From positions 1-38,001 of IMG/VR virus record IMGVR_UViG_3300046674_000429: a stretch of 38,001 bases of DNA, one strand, 5' to 3'. This DNA comes from a virus. A model generated the notes under the pieces. It saw nothing but the letters and a program-made list of their open reading frames with translations. It was not told the origin of the DNA and did no database searches. Numbering within the stretch: the stretch's first letter is position 1; each line of letters opens with the position of its first letter. Below, piece by piece: positions 14,450 to 38,001 of the stretch. Both the position numbers and the translations under genes were made by a program.

Positions 14450-14905
14450 ATGGGCCGTATCGCTCAGCCGGCTGCCCTCAAGCTGCTCAAGGGGTCGACG
14501 GAGGGCCGTGATTCGGGTGGCCGTGAGGTCAACACCGGGCCGGCCTTCCGGCGGATCGCTCCGAACCCGCCGACGTGGCTGTCACCCGAGGCGGCGGCCG
14601 AGTGGCGGCGGGTCGTCCCGGGTCTGCAGCGCCTGGACATCCTGAAGCCGGAGGACCGGGCGGTCCTCGCCGCGTACTGCGAGACGTGGTCCACCTTCGT
14701 GGACGCGATCCGCCAGCAGCACCGGGACGGCCTGACGATCGAGGCGAAGCAGGGGACGCTCGCGCATCCGGCGGTCGGCATCGCCCGGGCTGCGGCACGT
14801 GAGCTGCGGGCCTTCGCGGCGCACTTCGGCCTGACCCCGTCGACGGAGCAGGCCCTGGCGAGGGGGGCCGACGATGGCGGGGAAGAGGACAACCCGTTCG
14901 CGTAG
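14450..14905 (+). CDS. terS: Phage terminase small subunit, P27 family, 151 aa
   Basis: Residues 1-25 (GRIAQPAALKLLKGSTEGRD) and the central segment (PPTWLSPEAAAEWRRVVPGL, LDILKPEDRAVLAAYCETWS) match the P27-type small terminase pattern. The C-terminal part (TLAHPAVGIARAAARELRAF, FGLTPSTEQALARG) is also typical. This protein recognises phage DNA and presents it to the large subunit. The ATG lies 8 bases after GGGGGT, a modest ribosome binding site. The gene overlaps the large subunit by 32 bases, tying their expression. Confidence 0.93.
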   Translation: MGRIAQPAALKLLKGSTEGRDSGGREVNTGPAFRRIAPNPPTWLSPEAAAEWRRVVPGLQRLDILKPEDRAVLAAYCETWSTFVDAIRQQHRDGLTIEAKQGTLAHPAVGIARAAARELRAFAAHFGLTPSTEQALARGADDGGEEDNPFA

Positions 14906-16646
14906 CGCTGCCCCGGCCGGCCCGGTCACCCCCGCGGCGTTCCTGGACGACGCGGAGCTGGAGCGTCTCAAGCTCAGCCCCGAGGTCGCCTGGTACCTCG
15001 TCACCCGCGACATCCCGCCGCCGGACTGCCCGCCGCTGATCCGCACCCCGGAGCCCCGGGATGTGCCGGGCGCCGTGTTCGACCCCGACCGGGTCGACAA
15101 GGTCCTGAAGGCGTTCGGGCTGCTGCGGCACACGCAGGGCCAGTGGGCCGGTCAGCCGTTGCGACCGGACCCGTGGCAGGTCGCCTACATCCTGGGGCCG
15201 GTCTTCGGCTGGGTCCGCTGGGACGACGACGCGGATTCGTACGTGCGGATCGTGCGGACGCTGTACGTGGACGTCCCGCGCAAGAACGGCAAGAGCACGC
15301 TGTGCGGCGGCATCGCGATCTACCTGACATGCGCGGACGGCGAGCCCGGCGCGCAGGTCGTCGCGGCGGCCACCTCGGAGCGGCAGGCCGGGTTCGTCTT
15401 CCAGCCGGTGAAGCAGCTGGCGGAGAAGGCCCCGCGGCTCAAGGGCCACGTGCAGCCGCTGAAGAAGAAGATCATTCACACGCGGTCGGGCTCGTACTTC
15501 GAGGTCGTGTCCTCGGTCGCAGACGCCCAGCACGGCGCCAACCTGCACGGCGGCATCGTGGATGAGCTGCACGTCCACAAGACTCCGGACCTGGTCGAGA
15601 CGATCGAGACCGGCACCGGCTCCCGGCGCCAGCCCCTGATCGCGTTCATCACGACGGCGGACGCCGGCAAGCAGCACACGGTGTACGCCCGCAAACGGCA
15701 GTACTGCGAGCAGGTCGCCCGCGGCACGCTCTCCGACCCGACGTTCTACGGCGTGGTGTGGGCCGCGGAGAAGGGCGACGATCCGCATGTCGAGGCGACG
15801 TGGCGCAAGGCGAACCCGGGCTACGGGATCTCCCCGACGCGGTCCTACCTGCAGAGCAAGAGCAACGAGGCGGCGAACAGCCCGGCCGACCTCGCGAAGT
15901 TCCTGCGCCTGCACCTGGGCATCCGGACCAAGCAGGAGACCAAGTACCTGACCCTGGAGTCCTGGACCCGCAACGCGGGGATGGTCGACGAGCAGGCCCT
16001 GGCCGGCCGGGAGGCCTACGGCGGGCTTGACCTGGCGGCGACGTCGGACCTGCTGGCGCTGTGCTGGCTGTTCCCGGACGACGTCCGCGGTGGCTTCGAT
16101 GCCCTGTGGCGGCTGTGGACGCCGGAGGACAACGTCGAGGCGCTGGACCGGCGTACGGCCGGCGCCGCATCGGTGTGGGTCCGTCAGGGCCTGCTGGTCG
16201 CCACTCCGGGCAACGTCGCGGACTACGACTACATCCAGCTGCAGATCGAGCGGGACCTTGATGCGTTCGACGTTCGCTCGCTGGGTTTCGACCCGTGGTC
16301 GGCGGTCCCGCTGACCAACGAGCTCGCGAAGACCAACGCCCCGATGGTGAAGGTGAGGCAGGGTTTCGTGACCCTGTCCCCGCCGCTGAAGGAGCTGCAG
16401 CGTCTGCTCCTGAAGGGCACGCCGGAGGCGCCGCAGTTGCGGCACGGCGGGAACCCGGCGGTCACCTGGATGCTTGACAACCTCGCGGTGGCGATGGACC
16501 CGGCGGGCAACGTGAAGCCAGACAAGGCCCGGAGCGCCGAGAAGATCGACGCCATGTCGGCGCTGGTCACCGCGCTGTCCGAGGCGATGACCCGCGAGCC
16601 CGCGAAGAAGTCCGCATACGAGGACGACGACCTGATGATCGTCTGA
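14874..16646 (+). CDS. terL: Phage terminase large subunit (ATPase/nuclease), 590 aa
   Basis: The Walker A variant is VPRKNGKS (134-141), Walker B is GGIVDEL (226-232) with the catalytic Glu231, and a coupling motif follows near 255-263 (PLIAFITTA). The C-terminal RNase H-like nuclease starts at YGGLDLAATSDL (Asp386), with further acidic residues (SLGFDPWS near 470, MLDNLAVAMD near 540). It packages the genome into the prohead by ATP hydrolysis and cuts the DNA. Length and motif order fit HK97-like/lambdoid-type terminases of actinophages. The ATG lies inside the small-subunit gene, with GGGGGG upstream. Confidence 0.96.
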   Translation: MAGKRTTRSRSAAPAGPVTPAAFLDDAELERLKLSPEVAWYLVTRDIPPPDCPPLIRTPEPRDVPGAVFDPDRVDKVLKAFGLLRHTQGQWAGQPLRPDPWQVAYILGPVFGWVRWDDDADSYVRIVRTLYVDVPRKNGKSTLCGGIAIYLTCADGEPGAQVVAAATSERQAGFVFQPVKQLAEKAPRLKGHVQPLKKKIIHTRSGSYFEVVSSVADAQHGANLHGGIVDELHVHKTPDLVETIETGTGSRRQPLIAFITTADAGKQHTVYARKRQYCEQVARGTLSDPTFYGVVWAAEKGDDPHVEATWRKANPGYGISPTRSYLQSKSNEAANSPADLAKFLRLHLGIRTKQETKYLTLESWTRNAGMVDEQALAGREAYGGLDLAATSDLLALCWLFPDDVRGGFDALWRLWTPEDNVEALDRRTAGAASVWVRQGLLVATPGNVADYDYIQLQIERDLDAFDVRSLGFDPWSAVPLTNELAKTNAPMVKVRQGFVTLSPPLKELQRLLLKGTPEAPQLRHGGNPAVTWMLDNLAVAMDPAGNVKPDKARSAEKIDAMSALVTALSEAMTREPAKKSAYEDDDLMIV

Positions 16647-16659
16647 GCGGGGAGCGGCT

Positions 16660-16687
16660 GAGGGCGCCCACCGAAGTGGGCGCCCTC
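16660..16687. terminator. Perfect hairpin between convergent genes
   Basis: GAGGGCGCCCAC (16660-16671), tetraloop CGAA and GTGGGCGCCCTC (16676-16687) form a perfect 12-bp stem. It lies 14 bases after the terminase stop and can act on both strands, separating packaging genes from the minus-strand cassette. Confidence 0.75.
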
Positions 16688-16691
16688 CCAA

Positions 16692-16776
16692 GCCTCGCCT
16701 TGCCTCGCCTTGCGGTGCCAGGCCTCACCAAGCCGTGCCTCGGCCAGCCTCGCGTCACCGGGCCTGGCCATGCCGC
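16692..16776. repeat. Degenerate pentanucleotide tandem repeat (GCCTN)
   Basis: About 17 successive 5-bp units occupy the space between the terminator and the minus-strand gene. They begin GCCTC GCCTT GCCTC GCCTT and decay through GCCAG, GCCGT and GGCCA to GCCTG GCCAT GCCGC. On the minus strand the units read NNGGC. The 5-bp register holds throughout although the units differ, and nothing here codes for protein. Confidence 0.6.
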
Positions 16777-17313
16777 CTAGTCTGCCCCCTCCAGGCGTGT
16801 GAGGCGAGCTTGGATGGCGTCGAGTTCTTCCTGCGTTCTGTCGGCCCGCTGCCCCATGGTGGCGATCGCATCTTCGAGTCGTCGCTGGCGGACGTCCGTG
16901 CGCCGGTTGAACTCCAGCTGCATGGAGAAGGCGCGCATTGTGGCCTCGGTCAGCTGGCGCACTTCGGGGCTGAGGCCGTTGAGGTCGACGTTGACGACCT
17001 TCGAATGTCCGCGTGCGAGCGCGCGCGTGGACCGACGCTGCTGCCCTCGGGCCAGGATGACGTGCTCGTCGGGCCGGACGACCCGGTATCCAACGTTGCG
17101 GAGGGAGGTGACGGCGTGCTTGTCGACGGTCTCCAGCTCGCGCGCGGCTCGCCGCATGGCCATCTGAATGACGTGCCGGTCGGTTTCTGGGTGCAGGGCG
17201 AGCGCCTGGGCCATCGCCTCGTAGGTGAGAACCCCGTTGACGTCCGCGCTGCGAAGCAAGTCGTAGAGGGTGCGCCAGCGGGCAGTCTCACCAACGGGCT
17301 TGAAGGAACTCAC
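16777..17313 (-). CDS. Putative HTH/coiled-coil protein, partner of the RAMP-like gene, 178 aa
   Basis: The GTG start overlaps the stop of the upstream minus-strand gene (GTGA), so the two are translationally coupled. The N-terminal 85 residues (ARWRTLYDLLRSADVNGVLT, YEAMAQALALHPETDRHVIQ, MAMRRAARELETVDKHAVTS, NVGYRVVRPDEHVIL) resemble a winged helix with a final beta wing. A basic linker follows (RGQQRRSTRALARGH). The C-terminal 60 residues (RRTDVRQRRLEDAIATMGQR, TQEELDAIQARLTRLEG) are a coiled coil. A DNA- or RNA-binding, oligomerising protein is likely. I do not know a named family with this architecture. It may regulate the cassette or act with the RAMP-like protein. Confidence 0.75.
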   Translation of the reverse strand: MSSFKPVGETARWRTLYDLLRSADVNGVLTYEAMAQALALHPETDRHVIQMAMRRAARELETVDKHAVTSLRNVGYRVVRPDEHVILARGQQRRSTRALARGHSKVVNVDLNGLSPEVRQLTEATMRAFSMQLEFNRRTDVRQRRLEDAIATMGQRADRTQEELDAIQARLTRLEGAD

Positions 17314-17882
17314 AGCTCCTCCACGGTGGCCGTGAAGCGCCCGAAGCGGGGACGCCAGTCGCCGAGCCCAATCCGGGCGCCCGCCGCATCCGAAATCTGC
17401 TGCAACTCTTCGAGGTTCAGCTCGGTCTCGTCCAGCTCGCCCTCGGCGTCCACGCTCCAGTTCTGGAACATCGGTCGCGTGCGCATGACGCGCGCCATGC
17501 CGACCTTGACGGACTTCCGATGCCTGAAGTTCTCGTCCGCCCAGAGGGCGGCCGGGTCGCGCGGGCCCCGGTAGGCGACGGGGTTGATGTCCGTAGAGAT
17601 GAACACGCCGCGCGTCACCTGGCGCCCCGAGCGGGTGAGCTTGGCTGCGTCTACGAGGCACCGCTGCAGGTTGTCGCCGGGGATGAAGGGGCCCGCGTCC
17701 GGGTCGTAGTAGAGGCCGCCCAGGAACTCCAGGCGGGCCATGTCCTCGTGGTCGGCGTCGGTCTTCTTGCGCTTGGCGGAGGCCGCCTTCATGCCTCTGG
17801 CGTGCACATTGAGCGGGTCGGCGAGCTGGGCGTTGTGCATCAGCAGGGGCAGGGTGCCGGTGAGTGTCACGCGGAATCGCAA
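17310..17882 (-). CDS. Stand-alone RAMP/Cas7-like protein, 190 aa
   Basis: The sequence has features of RAMP-superfamily (Cas7-type) proteins: an N-terminal strand ending in LPLLMHN, the central motif GPFIPGDNLQRCLVDAAK (as in the 'pyIPGssLkGalR' motif), a middle region RGVFISTDINPVAYRGP, a basic segment KVGMARVMRTRPMFQNW and a C-terminal Gly-rich loop GARIGLGDWRPRFGRF. I recall a family of phage and prophage hypotheticals with 'LLMHN' and 'GDWRPRFGRF', without known function. The preferred start is TTG at 17882 with GGAGGA 4 bases upstream. A TTG at 17906 would add 8 residues but has no ribosome binding site. It lies minus-strand between terminase and portal, so it is expressed separately from the late genes. 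RNA binding is an inference from the fold. Confidence 0.78.
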   Translation of the reverse strand: MRFRVTLTGTLPLLMHNAQLADPLNVHARGMKAASAKRKKTDADHEDMARLEFLGGLYYDPDAGPFIPGDNLQRCLVDAAKLTRSGRQVTRGVFISTDINPVAYRGPRDPAALWADENFRHRKSVKVGMARVMRTRPMFQNWSVDAEGELDETELNLEELQQISDAAGARIGLGDWRPRFGRFTATVEEL

Positions 17883-17906
17883 GGGGTCCTCCACGGAGAG
17901 CGTCAA

Positions 17907-17997
17907 CTTGCCTAATTATAGCGGCAATTGCGGCATATATCCCGCTCTAAATGCAGCTCATTGCGCCATTAATCCCTAACTCACATCGGAGGTAGCC
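17907..17997 (-). promoter_or_regulatory. AT-rich control region with consensus TATAAT
   Basis: The AT content rises abruptly between the RAMP-like gene and the next plus-strand gene. On the minus strand a perfect TATAAT lies at 17920-17915, giving a start near 17908 and a 5' leader of about 26 bases to the TTG at 17882. The -35 is poor (GGGATA at 17 bp). The spacer holds the palindrome GCAATTGC inside GCGGCAATTGCGGC (17921-17934), a likely operator. No clear plus-strand promoter is seen. Confidence 0.6.
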
Positions 17998-18219
17998 GTG
18001 TTCTGGTGGCGCCGTACGGCCCTCCGCAAGCGCGTCGTGGTCAACCTGCCCGACAAGGCCTTCAGGGGCGTGCTGTGGGCGAAGCGTGGTCCGCTGCTGG
18101 TCCTGCGGGACGCTGAGCTGCTGGAGGCCGGCCGGGAGGCGGTGCGGGTAGACGGCGAGGTTGTCATCGAGCGGTCTCGGGTCGAGTTCATGCAGGTGCC
18201 CGCGGTCGGGGGTGGCTGA
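17998..18219 (+). CDS. Small basic protein upstream of portal, 73 aa
   Basis: The GTG start follows CGGAGG. The N-terminus is basic and aromatic (FWWRRTALRKRVVVNLPD), then beta-rich (AFRGVLWAKRGPLLVLRDAE, VRVDGEVVIERSRVEFMQVP), resembling an SH3/Sm-like barrel. Proteins of this size and look are often encoded just before the portal in actinophages; the role is unknown. It shares one base with the portal start (TGATG), so it is cotranslated. Confidence 0.7.
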   Translation: MFWWRRTALRKRVVVNLPDKAFRGVLWAKRGPLLVLRDAELLEAGREAVRVDGEVVIERSRVEFMQVPAVGGG

Positions 18220-20153
18220 TGGCCTTCGTCATCACCGGTGGCCAGCTGCAGCCGACCGGGCCCGGCTTCGCGCAGGCGTTCAACAGTCTGCCGATCGCCC
18301 CCGCCGAGTGGGAGTACACGGAGATCTGGCGTACCCAGCCGCAGGTCCGCACCGTGGTCAGCTTCCTGGCACGGAACATCGCCCAGGTCGGCATCCACAC
18401 CTTCCGGAGGGTCTCCGACACCGATCGCAAGCGGCTGACGGACCACGGGCTCACCCGGGTCCTGGCGGAGCCACTTCCACGCCTGACCCAGTACCGGCTG
18501 ATTGAGCGGCTGGTGTCGGACCTCGCGGTGTACGACACCGCGTACTGGATCAAGGCCATGGTGGACGGCACGCTCCGGCTGCTGCCCACGCCCCCGTCCC
18601 TACTGCGGCCGGTCGGCGGGTCCTGGCTGCAGGCCGACCACTATGAGGCCGCATCAGGAATGCGCTTCGAAGTAGATCAGGTCGTGCACTTCCACGGCTA
18701 CCACCCGGACGACCTGCGCATCGGCTCGTCCAGCCTGGACGCCCTGCGCTCCCTGCTCCTGGAGGACCGCGAGTCCAGCCGCCAGCGAGCCCAGATGTGG
18801 CGCTCCGGCGCCCGGATGACCGGCGTTCTTACCCGGCCGACCGACGCCGGCGACTGGAGCCCCGAGTCGCGGGCCCGGTTCCGGGAGATGTGGCGGACGT
18901 TCACGCAGGGCGGCGGTGCCGAGGGAGGCACGCCAATCCTGGAGGATGGCATGGGCTACACGCAGGTCTCGATGAACCCGCAGCAGACCCAGTACATCGA
19001 GTCCCGCAAGCTCACCCGGGAGGAGGTCGCCGCCGCCTTCCACATCCCGCCGCCGCTGGTCGGCATCCTCGACCATGCCACCTACAGCAACATCGTGCAG
19101 CAGCACGAGATCCTCTACCAGGACACCCTCGGACCTTGGTTCGAGAGCATCGTGCAGGACATCCAGGCCCAGCTGCTGCCCGACATCCCAGACAACAAGG
19201 ATGTCTACTGCGAGTTCAACATCGCGGCGAAGATGGCCGGCGACTTCGAGGCTCAGGCCGCAGCCGCCAGCACGGCGACCGGCGGCCCGTGGATGACCCG
19301 CAACGAGCAGCGCGCTCGGATGAACCTGCCGAGCCTGGAGGGCGGCGACGAGCTGATCGTCCCGCTGAACGTGACTGCCGGCGGGAAGGCCTCACCGACG
19401 GACACCGTGCCGAAGGCGGCCATCCCCTCCAAGGGGTGGGTGCCGGCTCTCAAGGCGTCCGACCGGCCTGAGAAGCTCGGCGACTTCGACTACGAGCGCG
19501 ACCAGTTCGCCCGGCGCCTGGGCAACCGCTCGGAGCGGCAGGCGGCTTCGCTACTGGCGTCCGTGGGCGCGAAGGACCTGGCGCCTCCCGACGTCATGGC
19601 GACGTGGGAGGCCGGGGCCGCCGACCGCCGGGCCGAGCTGCAGTCCTTGATCGCCACGCACGGGTTCAGGATCGCGCAGGTCGGCGCCTGGGAGGTCCTC
19701 GCCGAGCACAACGCCAACGCCGAGGGGTGGTCGGCGGACGTGATGCTCGCCTGGCTGCTGACGGCGGCCGGTTCCCACGCCGAGGCCCACGACGCGGAGG
19801 GCACGAATCTGCTGACCACGGCGGTGGCTTCGACCGAAGGGGACTGGCGGGACCGGGTCCAGTCCGCGATGGCGGTGTGGGCTGGCAGCACGGCGGTCCG
19901 GCGGGCCTTCACCGCGGCCACCGAGACACGGTCGTTCGGCGGGCATGACGCCGCCTGGGCGTCCGGGCTCACTTCCAAGGTGTGGCGCACGGGCGGCAGC
20001 AACCCCCGTACGTCCCACAAGGCCCTGGATGGCGACAAGGTCCAACTCGACGACGTCTTCGGCAACGGCTGCAGGTGGCCGGGGGACGCACACGGCAGGG
20101 AGTCGGAGACGGCCAACTGCAACTGCAAGTTGACGTACGAGAGAGGGGAGTAG
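18219..20153 (+). CDS. Portal protein fused to MuF-like head morphogenesis domain, 644 aa
   Basis: Residues about 20-400 match HK97-type portals: AEWEYTEIWRTQPQVRTVVS, TVVSFLARNIAQVGIHTFRR, YDTAYWIKAMV, VVHFHGYHPDDLRIGSSSLD and the C-terminal portal motif 'RKLTREEVAAAFHIPPPLVG' near 263. After a helical linker the last 60 residues carry the MuF/minor-head signature: WRTGGSNPRTSHKALDGDKV, 'DDVFGNGCRWPGD' and 'ETANCNCKLTYE'. The portal forms the dodecameric DNA channel at one head vertex, and MuF-type domains are minor head proteins. Usual portals are 400-500 aa; here the two are one polypeptide. Confidence 0.92.
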   Translation: MAFVITGGQLQPTGPGFAQAFNSLPIAPAEWEYTEIWRTQPQVRTVVSFLARNIAQVGIHTFRRVSDTDRKRLTDHGLTRVLAEPLPRLTQYRLIERLVSDLAVYDTAYWIKAMVDGTLRLLPTPPSLLRPVGGSWLQADHYEAASGMRFEVDQVVHFHGYHPDDLRIGSSSLDALRSLLLEDRESSRQRAQMWRSGARMTGVLTRPTDAGDWSPESRARFREMWRTFTQGGGAEGGTPILEDGMGYTQVSMNPQQTQYIESRKLTREEVAAAFHIPPPLVGILDHATYSNIVQQHEILYQDTLGPWFESIVQDIQAQLLPDIPDNKDVYCEFNIAAKMAGDFEAQAAAASTATGGPWMTRNEQRARMNLPSLEGGDELIVPLNVTAGGKASPTDTVPKAAIPSKGWVPALKASDRPEKLGDFDYERDQFARRLGNRSERQAASLLASVGAKDLAPPDVMATWEAGAADRRAELQSLIATHGFRIAQVGAWEVLAEHNANAEGWSADVMLAWLLTAAGSHAEAHDAEGTNLLTTAVASTEGDWRDRVQSAMAVWAGSTAVRRAFTAATETRSFGGHDAAWASGLTSKVWRTGGSNPRTSHKALDGDKVQLDDVFGNGCRWPGDAHGRESETANCNCKLTYERGE

Positions 20154-21092: not shown

Positions 21093-22406
21093 ATGGACAA
21101 GATCAAGCAGCTCACGGACGAGCTGAAGCACCACCTGACCAGCGCCCAGGCCATCGCCGCCAAGGCCGAGGAGGAGAACCGCGACTTCACCAACGAGGAG
21201 CGCCCGCTTCTGGTGGACCACATGGCCAAGGCCAAGATCGCGAAGGAGGCACTGGAGCAGGCCAAGGCCGACATCTCCGTTCGCGCCACCCTCGCCGACC
21301 TCGGCGACGGCATCGGCCTCACGGAGAAGACCGAGCGCCGCACCCCGTCCGGACTGATCGTGCCGGACGCCAAGACCAGCCTGGGCGAGACGTTCGTCAA
21401 GTCCGCCGAGTACGCCGCCCTCATGGCCGGCGCGCCCAACGGCCAGTTCGGCCAGAAGCAGCGCGTACAGTCCATGCCGGTCGGCTTCAAGACGCTCGTC
21501 ACCGGCGCCTCCGACACCTCCGCCGGCGCGTTCGTCCAGAACGACTACCGCGGTGTGCTCGTCGGCAACGAGGCGTTCCAGCGCCCGCTGACCCTGCGCG
21601 ACATCGTCACCCAGGGCACCACCACCAGCGACACCGTCGAGTACGTCCGCATGACGTCCTTCACCAACAACGCGGCGCCGGTCGCCGAGGCCACGTCCTC
21701 CGCGTCGCCGACCGCCCCGGCCTCCGTCCCCGGCGCCCTGGTGCCGAACCCGGGCGGCGGCTACAAGCCGGAGTCGGCGTTCGCCGCAGCGAAGGTCACC
21801 ACCCCGGTGCGGACCATCGCGCACTGGATCCCGATCACCAAGCGCGCTCTGTCGGACCCGGCGCAGATCAAGACCCTCATCGACAACTTCCTCCGCTACG
21901 GCCTGGAGGAGGAACTCGAAGACCAGATGATCTCCGGTGACGGCACCGGCGAGAACTTCGACGGCCTCGGCAACGTCTCCGGGGTGCAGGCCCAGGCCTG
22001 GGACACCGACATCCTCACCACCCTGCGCAGGGCCAAGACGAAGGTCCGCACCGTCGGCCGCAGCATCGCCAACGCCTACCTGCTCAACCCGGCGGACCTG
22101 GAGACCGTCGACCTGCTGCAGGACAACGAGGGCCGCTACTACTTCGGCGGCCCGGGCGGCGTCGGCTCCGCGTCGGTCCTGTGGGGCCTGCCCGTCATCG
22201 AGACGGAGGCCGTGCCCGCGGGCACCGGCTACGTGGGCGACTTCCGCAAGGCGATCCTGTGGGACCGCGAACAGGCGTCCGTCACTATGACCGACTCCCA
22301 CGCGGACTTCTTCGTCCGCAACATCGTCGCGATCCTCGCCGAGATGCGGGCGGCCTTCGGCGTCATCCAGCCGAACGCCTTCGTCGAGGTCGACCTCACC
22401 GCCTGA
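21093..22406 (+). CDS. HK97-fold major capsid protein, 437 aa
   Basis: The N-terminal 90 residues (KIKQLTDELKHHLTSAQAIA and onward) are a charged coiled coil like the scaffolding delta domain removed by the protease. The rest matches HK97 capsids: TLRDIVTQGTTTSDTVEYVR, the E-loop region, AHWIPITKRALSDPAQIKTL, LEEELEDQMISGDGTGENFD, NAYLLNPADLETVDLLQDNE and GDFRKAILWDREQASVTMTD. It forms the icosahedral shell. The ATG follows GAGGAAGAG. Expression with the protease gene just upstream is assured by a 9-base gap. Confidence 0.95.
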   Translation: MDKIKQLTDELKHHLTSAQAIAAKAEEENRDFTNEERPLLVDHMAKAKIAKEALEQAKADISVRATLADLGDGIGLTEKTERRTPSGLIVPDAKTSLGETFVKSAEYAALMAGAPNGQFGQKQRVQSMPVGFKTLVTGASDTSAGAFVQNDYRGVLVGNEAFQRPLTLRDIVTQGTTTSDTVEYVRMTSFTNNAAPVAEATSSASPTAPASVPGALVPNPGGGYKPESAFAAAKVTTPVRTIAHWIPITKRALSDPAQIKTLIDNFLRYGLEEELEDQMISGDGTGENFDGLGNVSGVQAQAWDTDILTTLRRAKTKVRTVGRSIANAYLLNPADLETVDLLQDNEGRYYFGGPGGVGSASVLWGLPVIETEAVPAGTGYVGDFRKAILWDREQASVTMTDSHADFFVRNIVAILAEMRAAFGVIQPNAFVEVDLTA

Positions 22407-35479: not shown

Positions 35480-35645
35480 GCTTCGTCGTGGGGGTCTCGG
35501 GGACACCATCGGTCACTGAGCCGATCAGGTGCCTCACCGGACTAGGCTTGCAGCATCACTCGAACGGCCCATCGGCCGGGGCATAAAGCTGCCCCGGCGG
35601 GACTCCTACATCTCACCGGGGCCGGAGCGCAACGAAAGGCACTCA
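35480..35645 (+). promoter_or_regulatory. Leader of the antirepressor gene with competing hairpins
   Basis: Non-coding, 166 bp. GCCGGGGC (35575-35582) can pair with GCCCCGGC (35591-35598), while part of the latter (GCCCCGG, 35591-35597) can instead pair with CCGGGGC (35616-35622). The two stems exclude each other. A TAGGCT -10-like box lies at 35543-35548 with no good -35. Confidence 0.45.
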
Positions 35646-36470
35646 ATGCCAGAGCACAACACTAACCTGCCCGCGACCGCCGACGCGAGTGGGGGCAGTC
35701 CCTTCGACCGGATGATGAGGTTCGATGACTACGGCCAGGAGTACTGGTCTGCGCGCGATCTCCAGCCGGTCATGGGCTACGAGAAGTGGGATCACTTCGG
35801 CGGCCCTGGCGGCGTCGTCGAGCGGGCCATTCGGTCTGCCGAGAACGTCGGCACCTACTCTGAGCAGGCATTTTCCCGGATCCGGGAAAGTTCGAGCACG
35901 TCTGGACCGGCTCGTTTCGACTACCGGCTGAGCCGTAACGCGGCCTACCTGGTGGCGATGAACGGCGACCCGAACAAGCCTCAGGTCGCCGCAGCTCAGG
36001 CGTACTTCGCCGCCCAGACCCGCAAGGCCGAGATTGCCACGAGTCGGCCGATGTCCGAGATCGAGATGGCCCGGCAGTACCTCGCCGTCCTGGAGCGCGA
36101 GGAGAAGCAGGCCAAGGAGCTGGCGATCGCGGCGCCGAAGGCCGGCAAGTGGGACGAGTTCCTCGACACCGAGGGTCTGATCAGCATGCGGTCGCTGGCG
36201 GACATGCTGGGCGAGGACGTCAAGGTCGTGACCAACTGGCTGGTCGAGATCGGCATCTTCCGCAAGGAGGTGTCGCGGTACGGCGGGGCCCGGAATCTGC
36301 CGCGTCTGCCGTATCAGCGGGCGGGCCAGTTCGCTGTCAAGATCGAGTCCGCGAACGGCGTGAGCTTCTCGGTGGCGTACGCGACGGCCCGGGGCCTTGA
36401 TCTGATCGTGGACCTGTGGCGGCAGCAGGAGGTTCGGCTCCCCGACCGACCGGCGGGCGATGCTCGCTGA
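35646..36470 (+). CDS. Phage antirepressor (DinD/BRO-N plus KilAC), 274 aa
   Basis: The ATG at 35646 follows CGAAAGG. Residues about 25-140 match the BRO-N domain of DinD-type proteins: YWSARDLQPVMGYEKWDHFG, 'FDYRLSRNAAYLVAMNGDPN', KPQVAAAQAYFAAQTRKAE. Residues about 178-260 match the KilAC antirepressor domain: EGLISMRSLADMLGEDVKVV, TNWLVEIGIFRKEVSRYGGA, LPRLPYQRAGQFAVKIE. Such proteins bind DNA or repressors and help switch from lysogeny to lysis, often under DNA damage control. An upstream extension to 35529 is open but lacks a ribosome binding site. Codon use is less extreme than in the late genes. Confidence 0.9.
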   Translation: MPEHNTNLPATADASGGSPFDRMMRFDDYGQEYWSARDLQPVMGYEKWDHFGGPGGVVERAIRSAENVGTYSEQAFSRIRESSSTSGPARFDYRLSRNAAYLVAMNGDPNKPQVAAAQAYFAAQTRKAEIATSRPMSEIEMARQYLAVLEREEKQAKELAIAAPKAGKWDEFLDTEGLISMRSLADMLGEDVKVVTNWLVEIGIFRKEVSRYGGARNLPRLPYQRAGQFAVKIESANGVSFSVAYATARGLDLIVDLWRQQEVRLPDRPAGDAR

Positions 36471-37646: not shown

Positions 37647-37749
37647 GCAAGGGGTTTGCCTGAACTCACCCGATGTGATGAATGGCCGCGTCTATGCCCG
37701 ATCCACCTGCGCGCCCCCGCTGACGTGTGCCAGGATCCTCCTGTGACAG

Positions 37750-38001
37750 CCCCGCACTCGCGGGGGTGTTTCTTCACTGTCACTCACGATCGCATGCTCC
37801 CCGCCTCTGCGGGGATGGCCCTACCCACCGTCGCTGTACGGACGGTCAGCTTGACTGCTCCCCGTCGCTACGGGGGTTACCCGGATGCACGGAACTTTCC
37901 GGGTTCCTGCTCCCCGCACTAGCGGGGGAAGTTCGGCCCCGCCTTGGCGGGGATGATCCGCAGCCGTGTTTCAACACGACGTTGGCCCCGCGCTCGCGGG
38001 G
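37750..38001 (+). CRISPR. CRISPR type I-E-like repeats, irregular; edge of an array
   Basis: Six units with a CCCCGN4-type stem and 4-base loop, CCCCGC-NNNN-GCGGGG, at 37750, 37799, 37860, 37912, 37937 and 37986. The flanks are partly conserved (TGCT or TTGG before, ATGATCC/ATGGCCC/GTTACCC after), as in actinobacterial I-E repeats. Spacings are 49, 61, 52, 25 and 49; only 37799-37860 has the 61-bp period of a normal I-E array. All six stems are perfect although the loops differ, and the unit at 37860 uses a T-A pair. No cas gene is in the window. Confidence 0.55.

Follow-up and report, generated by a model that had tools for sequence, protein, structure and literature searches.

A probable VIPR system in an actinobacteriophage, with a single guide RNA that reads as if aimed at a capsid gene

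VIPR systems combine a Vipr protein, which is RAMP-like, with a vap gene and with vrRNAs built of GGY/NN repeats; according to the preprint describing them, the vrRNAs read DNA two bases per step and skip one base (PMC13142463; bioRxiv 2026.04.26.720920). In the SUSP1 clade, 18 of 20 guides are reported there to be aimed at a satellite having structural genes in common with its helper, and prophage targets are reported for the P. fulva clade. VIPR has been proposed as the ancestor of the CRISPR RAMP systems. Two members have been characterised, which are closely related and both gammaproteobacterial. The locus described here lies in a 38,001-base virus record, which was analysed as a whole (the window), and very probably encodes a VIPR system. 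It is a previously undocumented actinobacteriophage member of a kind that is itself already known from the 2026 description (PMC13142463); the original prediction had called the gene pair the best candidate for an undescribed system.

The window carries the packaging, head and tail operon of a phage on the plus strand. As originally predicted, two minus-strand genes overlapping by GTGA are inserted between the large terminase and the portal gene (Table 1). An alternative in-frame TTG start at 17906 would lengthen the vipr product to 198 aa. Nymphadora, a related Gordonia phage, lacks the insert: its terL, a 162-nt gene and its portal gene abut, in line with the moron-like position that had been claimed. 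Other phages have the cassette at other places: in LittleE it lies between the tape measure and the tail genes, in Trine near the DNA polymerase and in Medea1 in a regulatory cluster inside the tail genes. It therefore behaves as a mobile 'moron'. Relatives of vipr were found in 130 phage records and in no fewer than 209 stretches of IMG/VR, and a relative of vap adjoins vipr in 86 of 124 vipr matches, its start usually overlapping. Because the relatives are widespread and so often paired, the two genes are no chance pair of open reading frames. The pair had also been credited with its own promoter; the upstream region is AT-rich and contains a TATAAT, yet a search for a full sigma-70 consensus upstream of vipr found none. 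Neither a CRISPR array nor other cas genes were found beside the pair, which agrees with the prediction of a single RAMP protein without a Cas partner.

Two further features of the window were noted. A BRO-N/KilAC antirepressor gene near the right end suggests a temperate relative. The right end itself holds six palindromes, three of which have TGCTCCCCG..CGGGG in common at spacings of 61 and 52; they resemble degenerate type I-E CRISPR repeats, their loops vary between copies, and they lie 20 kb from the vipr-vap pair.

Table 1. Coordinates of the features discussed. Plain numbers are window positions; numbers after an L-handle are positions in the sequence of that name.
Feature	Position	Strand	Remarks
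Large terminase	14874-16646	+	flanks the vipr-vap pair on one side
Guide RNA (vrRNA)	16660-16776	-	directly after the vap stop, same strand; begins GGCATGGCCAGGCCCGGTGACGCG
vrRNA 3' tail	16660-16687	-	12-bp hairpin, UUCG loop
vrRNA repeat tract	16690-16774	-	17 GGY/NN units; three GGY triplets are CGC or GCC
vap (vipr-accessory)	16777-17313	-	178 aa; GTG start, overlapping vipr stop
vipr-vap overlap	17310-17313	-	GTGA
vipr	17310-17882	-	190 aa; TTG start; GGAGG at 17888-17892; RAMP/Cas7-like Vipr protein
AT-rich intergenic region upstream of vipr	17907-17997	-	TATAAT at 17915-17920 (-); candidate promoter
Portal	18219-20153	+	with a 73-aa gene, flanks the pair on the other side
Best site of the window guide in the window	22083-22133		in the phage's own capsid gene
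BRO-N/KilAC antirepressor gene	35529-36470	+	near right end
Right-end palindromes	37748-38001		six CCCCGC-N4-GCGGGG
Plasmid pWTY27	L169:1-14288		lone capsid gene
Integrated Streptomyces elements	L172:1-9583; L173:623-8410; L174:64-8217		each with a capsid gene
Guide of the Mycobacterium sp. E1747 locus	L023:1807-1879		
Possible targets of the L023 guide	L128:4522-4547; L129:3481-3506; L126:4906-4931		in frame, wobble base skipped
tRNA-like tails, examples	L002:1638-1700; L003:5735-7380; L004:6570-6845; L013:5460-6930		
tRNA-like tails, examples	L026:4250-4600; L030:7230-7275; L050:5650-5945; L110:5175-5215 and others		

By sequence and predicted structure, the 190-aa protein is a Vipr with a RAMP fold. 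It matches the chain deposited as 'SUSP1 Vipr protein' (PDB 36pp_D) with E=6e-40 in a single-sequence phmmer search and 3e-80 with a profile, and it is a full-length member of phrog_4652 (E=1e-62), to which PHROGs assigns no function. Searches of Pfam, NCBIfam and PADLOC gave no usable match. The two motifs IPGDNLQRC and GDWRPRFGRF are both present and strongly conserved. The structure search called for by the original prediction was run on an AlphaFold model (pLDDT 95.4); the best Foldseek matches were Csm3/Cas7 chains of type III and VII complexes, with E down to 2.8e-5, which together with the 36pp_D match upholds the proposed RAMP/Cas7-like domain. The suggestions that this protein probably binds RNA, which is still a prediction, and that it forms a system of its own are likewise judged right.

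The partner protein, foreseen as a coupled HTH/coiled-coil protein, is modelled with a winged helix at residues 12-78 and a long coiled coil at residues 83-177 (AlphaFold, pLDDT 92.4). Members of its family give weak Pfam matches to Trans_reg_C and DNA_binding_1; Vap is a predicted DNA-binding protein. The survey of gene neighbourhoods that had been proposed alongside the structure search confirmed the conserved pairing by the frequency given above.

The gene pair supplies two of the three parts of a VIPR system; the third, the guide RNA, was absent from the original prediction. The repeat tract behind vap has an array score of 80; when the whole window was shuffled 100 times by a first-order Markov model and searched on both strands, no score exceeded 43. 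Its 17 repeats are one above the published range of 9-16 for YNNGG (GGY/NN) repeats. The 123 related loci tested all have an array of this type beside vipr, on the vipr strand. Near vipr, the best array of each locus scored at least 32 (median 61), whereas the controls reached at most 30 in 615 shuffles and 31 in 70 stretches of 3 kb far from vipr. The hairpin tail, counterpart of the invariable structured end described for VIPR vrRNAs, is also maintained: over 19 tails of relatives, 98.4% of cells are paired, double changes occur in 9 of 10 pairs, and the covariation is 0.958 versus 0.277 when shuffled (0/500). In the sister phage L008, whose Vipr is 89% identical, the tail is nearly unchanged and the NN letters are wholly different, so that the two loci read as a constant tail with an exchanged guide.

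The NN dinucleotides of the window guide are AT CA CC GA GA TG GA AC TT GA CT AC AA GA AA GA TT. Decoded by the published one-base-skip rule they give [IM][HQ]P[DE][DE][CW][DE]T[FL][DE]LT[NK][DE][NK][DE][FL], a peptide resembling the hPxDWxxxxLxKD segment of HK97 capsid proteins. A tblastn search of plasmids with one realisation of this peptide retrieved capsid genes only (Streptomyces pWTY27 and Devosia, both annotated as major capsid), and the reversed peptide found nothing there; among phages the matches were mostly capsid genes. An HMM search with the peptide was set aside, as it is too short to inform. At the nucleotide level the window guide matches the capsid genes of pWTY27 and of L142, an integrated Streptomyces homologue, at 28 of 34 bases, in frame and with the wobble base skipped, although these genes had been retrieved via the decoded peptide and the match is not independent of that search. 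Guides of shuffled order reached at most 22, and other skip lengths (0, 2 or 3 nt) gave 17-18, the chance level. The L142 capsid protein is 37% identical to that of the window over 290 aa.

The guide of the sister phage (TT CT GA CA GA AT CG CT GG AT GA AT) points the same way. It matches the pWTY27/L142 capsid family at 21 of 24 bases at another site, FIDQEMRLGLEL, as good a match being reached by 0 of 300 shuffles per locus. Here too the skipped base is the wobble base, and skips of 0, 2 or 3 nt score at chance; this match was tested after its resemblance to capsid sequence had been noticed, and is not fully independent. Against its own phage region and against the window, the same guide scores at chance level. 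The best matches leave six mismatched bases for the window guide and three for the L008 guide, and the true target would therefore be a relative of these genes. No exact target of the window guide was found in IMG/VR with cores of 11 and 9 dinucleotides, except L091, which at 20 of 34 bases was taken as chance; the full guide had no target in GTDB, nor any with up to three mismatches in 393 Streptomyces genomes. Taken together, the window guide reads as though it were directed against the capsid gene of parasitic, capsid-carrying Streptomyces elements.

Guides of other loci were less informative. Two decoded guides of phage LittleE had no target, and among the collected related loci the 1-nt skip was not in excess over controls. 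In a mixture model of NN usage by codon position, positions 1-2 came out favoured on both strands; this was discarded as evidence since GC3 bias alone suffices to produce it. For one guide (L046:7416), 19 of 20 bases agree with a site in a second contig that carries VIPR (L064:2083); this may be chance, because the window guide scored equally on a chance match. Three homologous tape-measure-like genes agree with the guide of the Mycobacterium sp. E1747 locus at 22 of 22 bases, over 11 consecutive dinucleotides. Reversing the order of this guide also gives three 18-base matches, and the guide was not found in 118 Mycobacterium genomes; a tape-measure target is only suggestive on these matches.

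Of the elements that carry this capsid family, pWTY27 is a plasmid of 14 kb on which a lone capsid gene occurs together with traA, traB and a primase/polymerase. The three integrated elements found in Streptomyces genomes each have an integrase, a primase or replication gene, an HNH gene, a TerS and a capsid gene; their TerS belongs to the same family as that of the window (PF05119), with 31% identity over 91 aa for L172. Within the 16 kb read, they show no recognised large terminase or portal gene. The gene layout of the integrated elements is satellite-like, being that of capsid-carrying phage satellites, and they and pWTY27 are candidate members of that class.

From these features a mechanism can be proposed. 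The vipr-vap transcript would yield, at its 3' end, a single vrRNA that Vipr subunits coat. The GGY bases would be held by the protein, while each NN dinucleotide pairs with DNA and one target base is skipped per step. The complex would bind a capsid-protein gene in a competing element, which is most likely a capsid-carrying satellite, and keep that gene from being transcribed; Vap, as a predicted DNA-binding protein, would strengthen the block. Guide loading, the one-nucleotide skip and silencing are taken over from the VIPR preprint by homology. The target element would be a satellite and the window phage its helper.

The system probably serves one virus-like element as a weapon against another. 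Silencing of a satellite is its likeliest job, and one we consider reasonably probable, because the capsid carriers are satellite-like and the guides of the SUSP1 clade are reported likewise to hit a satellite (PMC13142463). Ranked second, and doubtful, is a VIPR system directed instead against a rival complete phage, with that phage's capsid gene as the target of the guide. The prophage targets reported for the P. fulva clade (PMC13142463) speak for such a rival, as do the intermediate matches of the window guide to capsid genes of various phages and prophages (22-27 of 34 bases); however, the best matches of both sister guides fall in the capsid family of pWTY27 and the integrated elements, and it is in the latter that no large terminase or portal is recognised.

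It is much less probable that the guide acts on the capsid gene of its own phage, to time late expression. The best site in the whole window does lie in that gene, at the homologous position, but it matches only 23 of 34 bases, a score that 15 of 2000 shuffled guides equal somewhere in the window; foreign capsid genes fit better, and the L008 guide is at chance in its own region. Least probable of all is the anti-CRISPR role entertained in the original prediction, in which a solo Cas7-like subunit would cap or poison the host's Cascade or Csm complex. Its Csm3/Cas7-like fold would suit such a role, but the protein is a close relative of Vipr with a guide RNA of its own, which offers a direct alternative; the conserved partner is a predicted DNA-binding protein, the family searches found no match to an anti-CRISPR family, and nothing points to Cascade capping.

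Silencing of a satellite capsid gene thus remains the preferred reading for the window, and relatives of the locus suggest a new route by which such guides mature. In 33 vipr loci, including LittleE, Trine, MakoManhole and a Bacteroidales locus, tRNA-like elements stand after or between the GGY/NN arrays. They have an acceptor stem of 5-7 bp, a D-loop-like GG linker (e.g. GATGGTC, AATGGTT), a 5-bp T-stem and a T-loop TTCRANY; 48 distinct copies were counted, and a few of these resemble chance matches. The same scan over 356 kb away from vipr gave nine matches, two of them real tRNA genes. Since the scan required pairing, independent evidence comes not from its pairing statistics but from the enrichment and from how diverse the stem sequences are. 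Rfam reported no tRNA in the five loci scanned, ARAGORN made one dubious call only at such an element, and the main text of the VIPR preprint makes no mention of tRNA (PMC13142463). The tails likely serve for cutting by RNase P or RNase Z, or for end protection.

More tentatively, we suggest that the VIPRs of actinobacteriophages form a separate, largely anti-satellite branch, with single capsid-aimed vrRNAs released from the vap message at its 3' end, and with sister lineages whose vrRNAs end in tRNA mimics through which host tRNA enzymes would be able to cut the guide arrays. If true, tRNA processing in place of Cas6 would mature a CRISPR-like array. The window places VIPR in actinobacterial phages, with a minimal one-guide locus, and supports conflict between elements as its main job. 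It also offers a concrete candidate target, namely the capsid gene in satellite-like elements of Streptomyces, at which two sister guides point.

Compared with known systems, Vipr has the RAMP fold and the Gly-rich loop in common with the Csm3/Cas7 backbone subunits of type III and VII CRISPR effectors, which polymerise on a guide RNA, as would be expected of Vipr. There is no detectable sequence relation between them, Cas10, Cas5 and Cas6 are absent beside vipr, and in the Vipr system the guide is read as dinucleotides with skips. The likeness to the VIPR of Escherichia phage SUSP1, as given in the preprint (PMC13142463; PDB 36pp), is much closer: Vipr is alignable over its length, a vap gene (in the window, for a predicted DNA-binding protein) is adjacent, and both systems are phage-borne, with a vrRNA of GGY/NN repeats and a structured tail. 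Differences include an identity of about 38% between the window Vipr and the homologue in the Felixounavirus wV8. SUSP1 has four flanking vrRNAs with a pseudoknot tail, whereas the window has one vrRNA directly behind vap with a plain UUCG hairpin; unlike in SUSP1, the window Vap has a long C-terminal coiled coil and the phage is actinobacterial.
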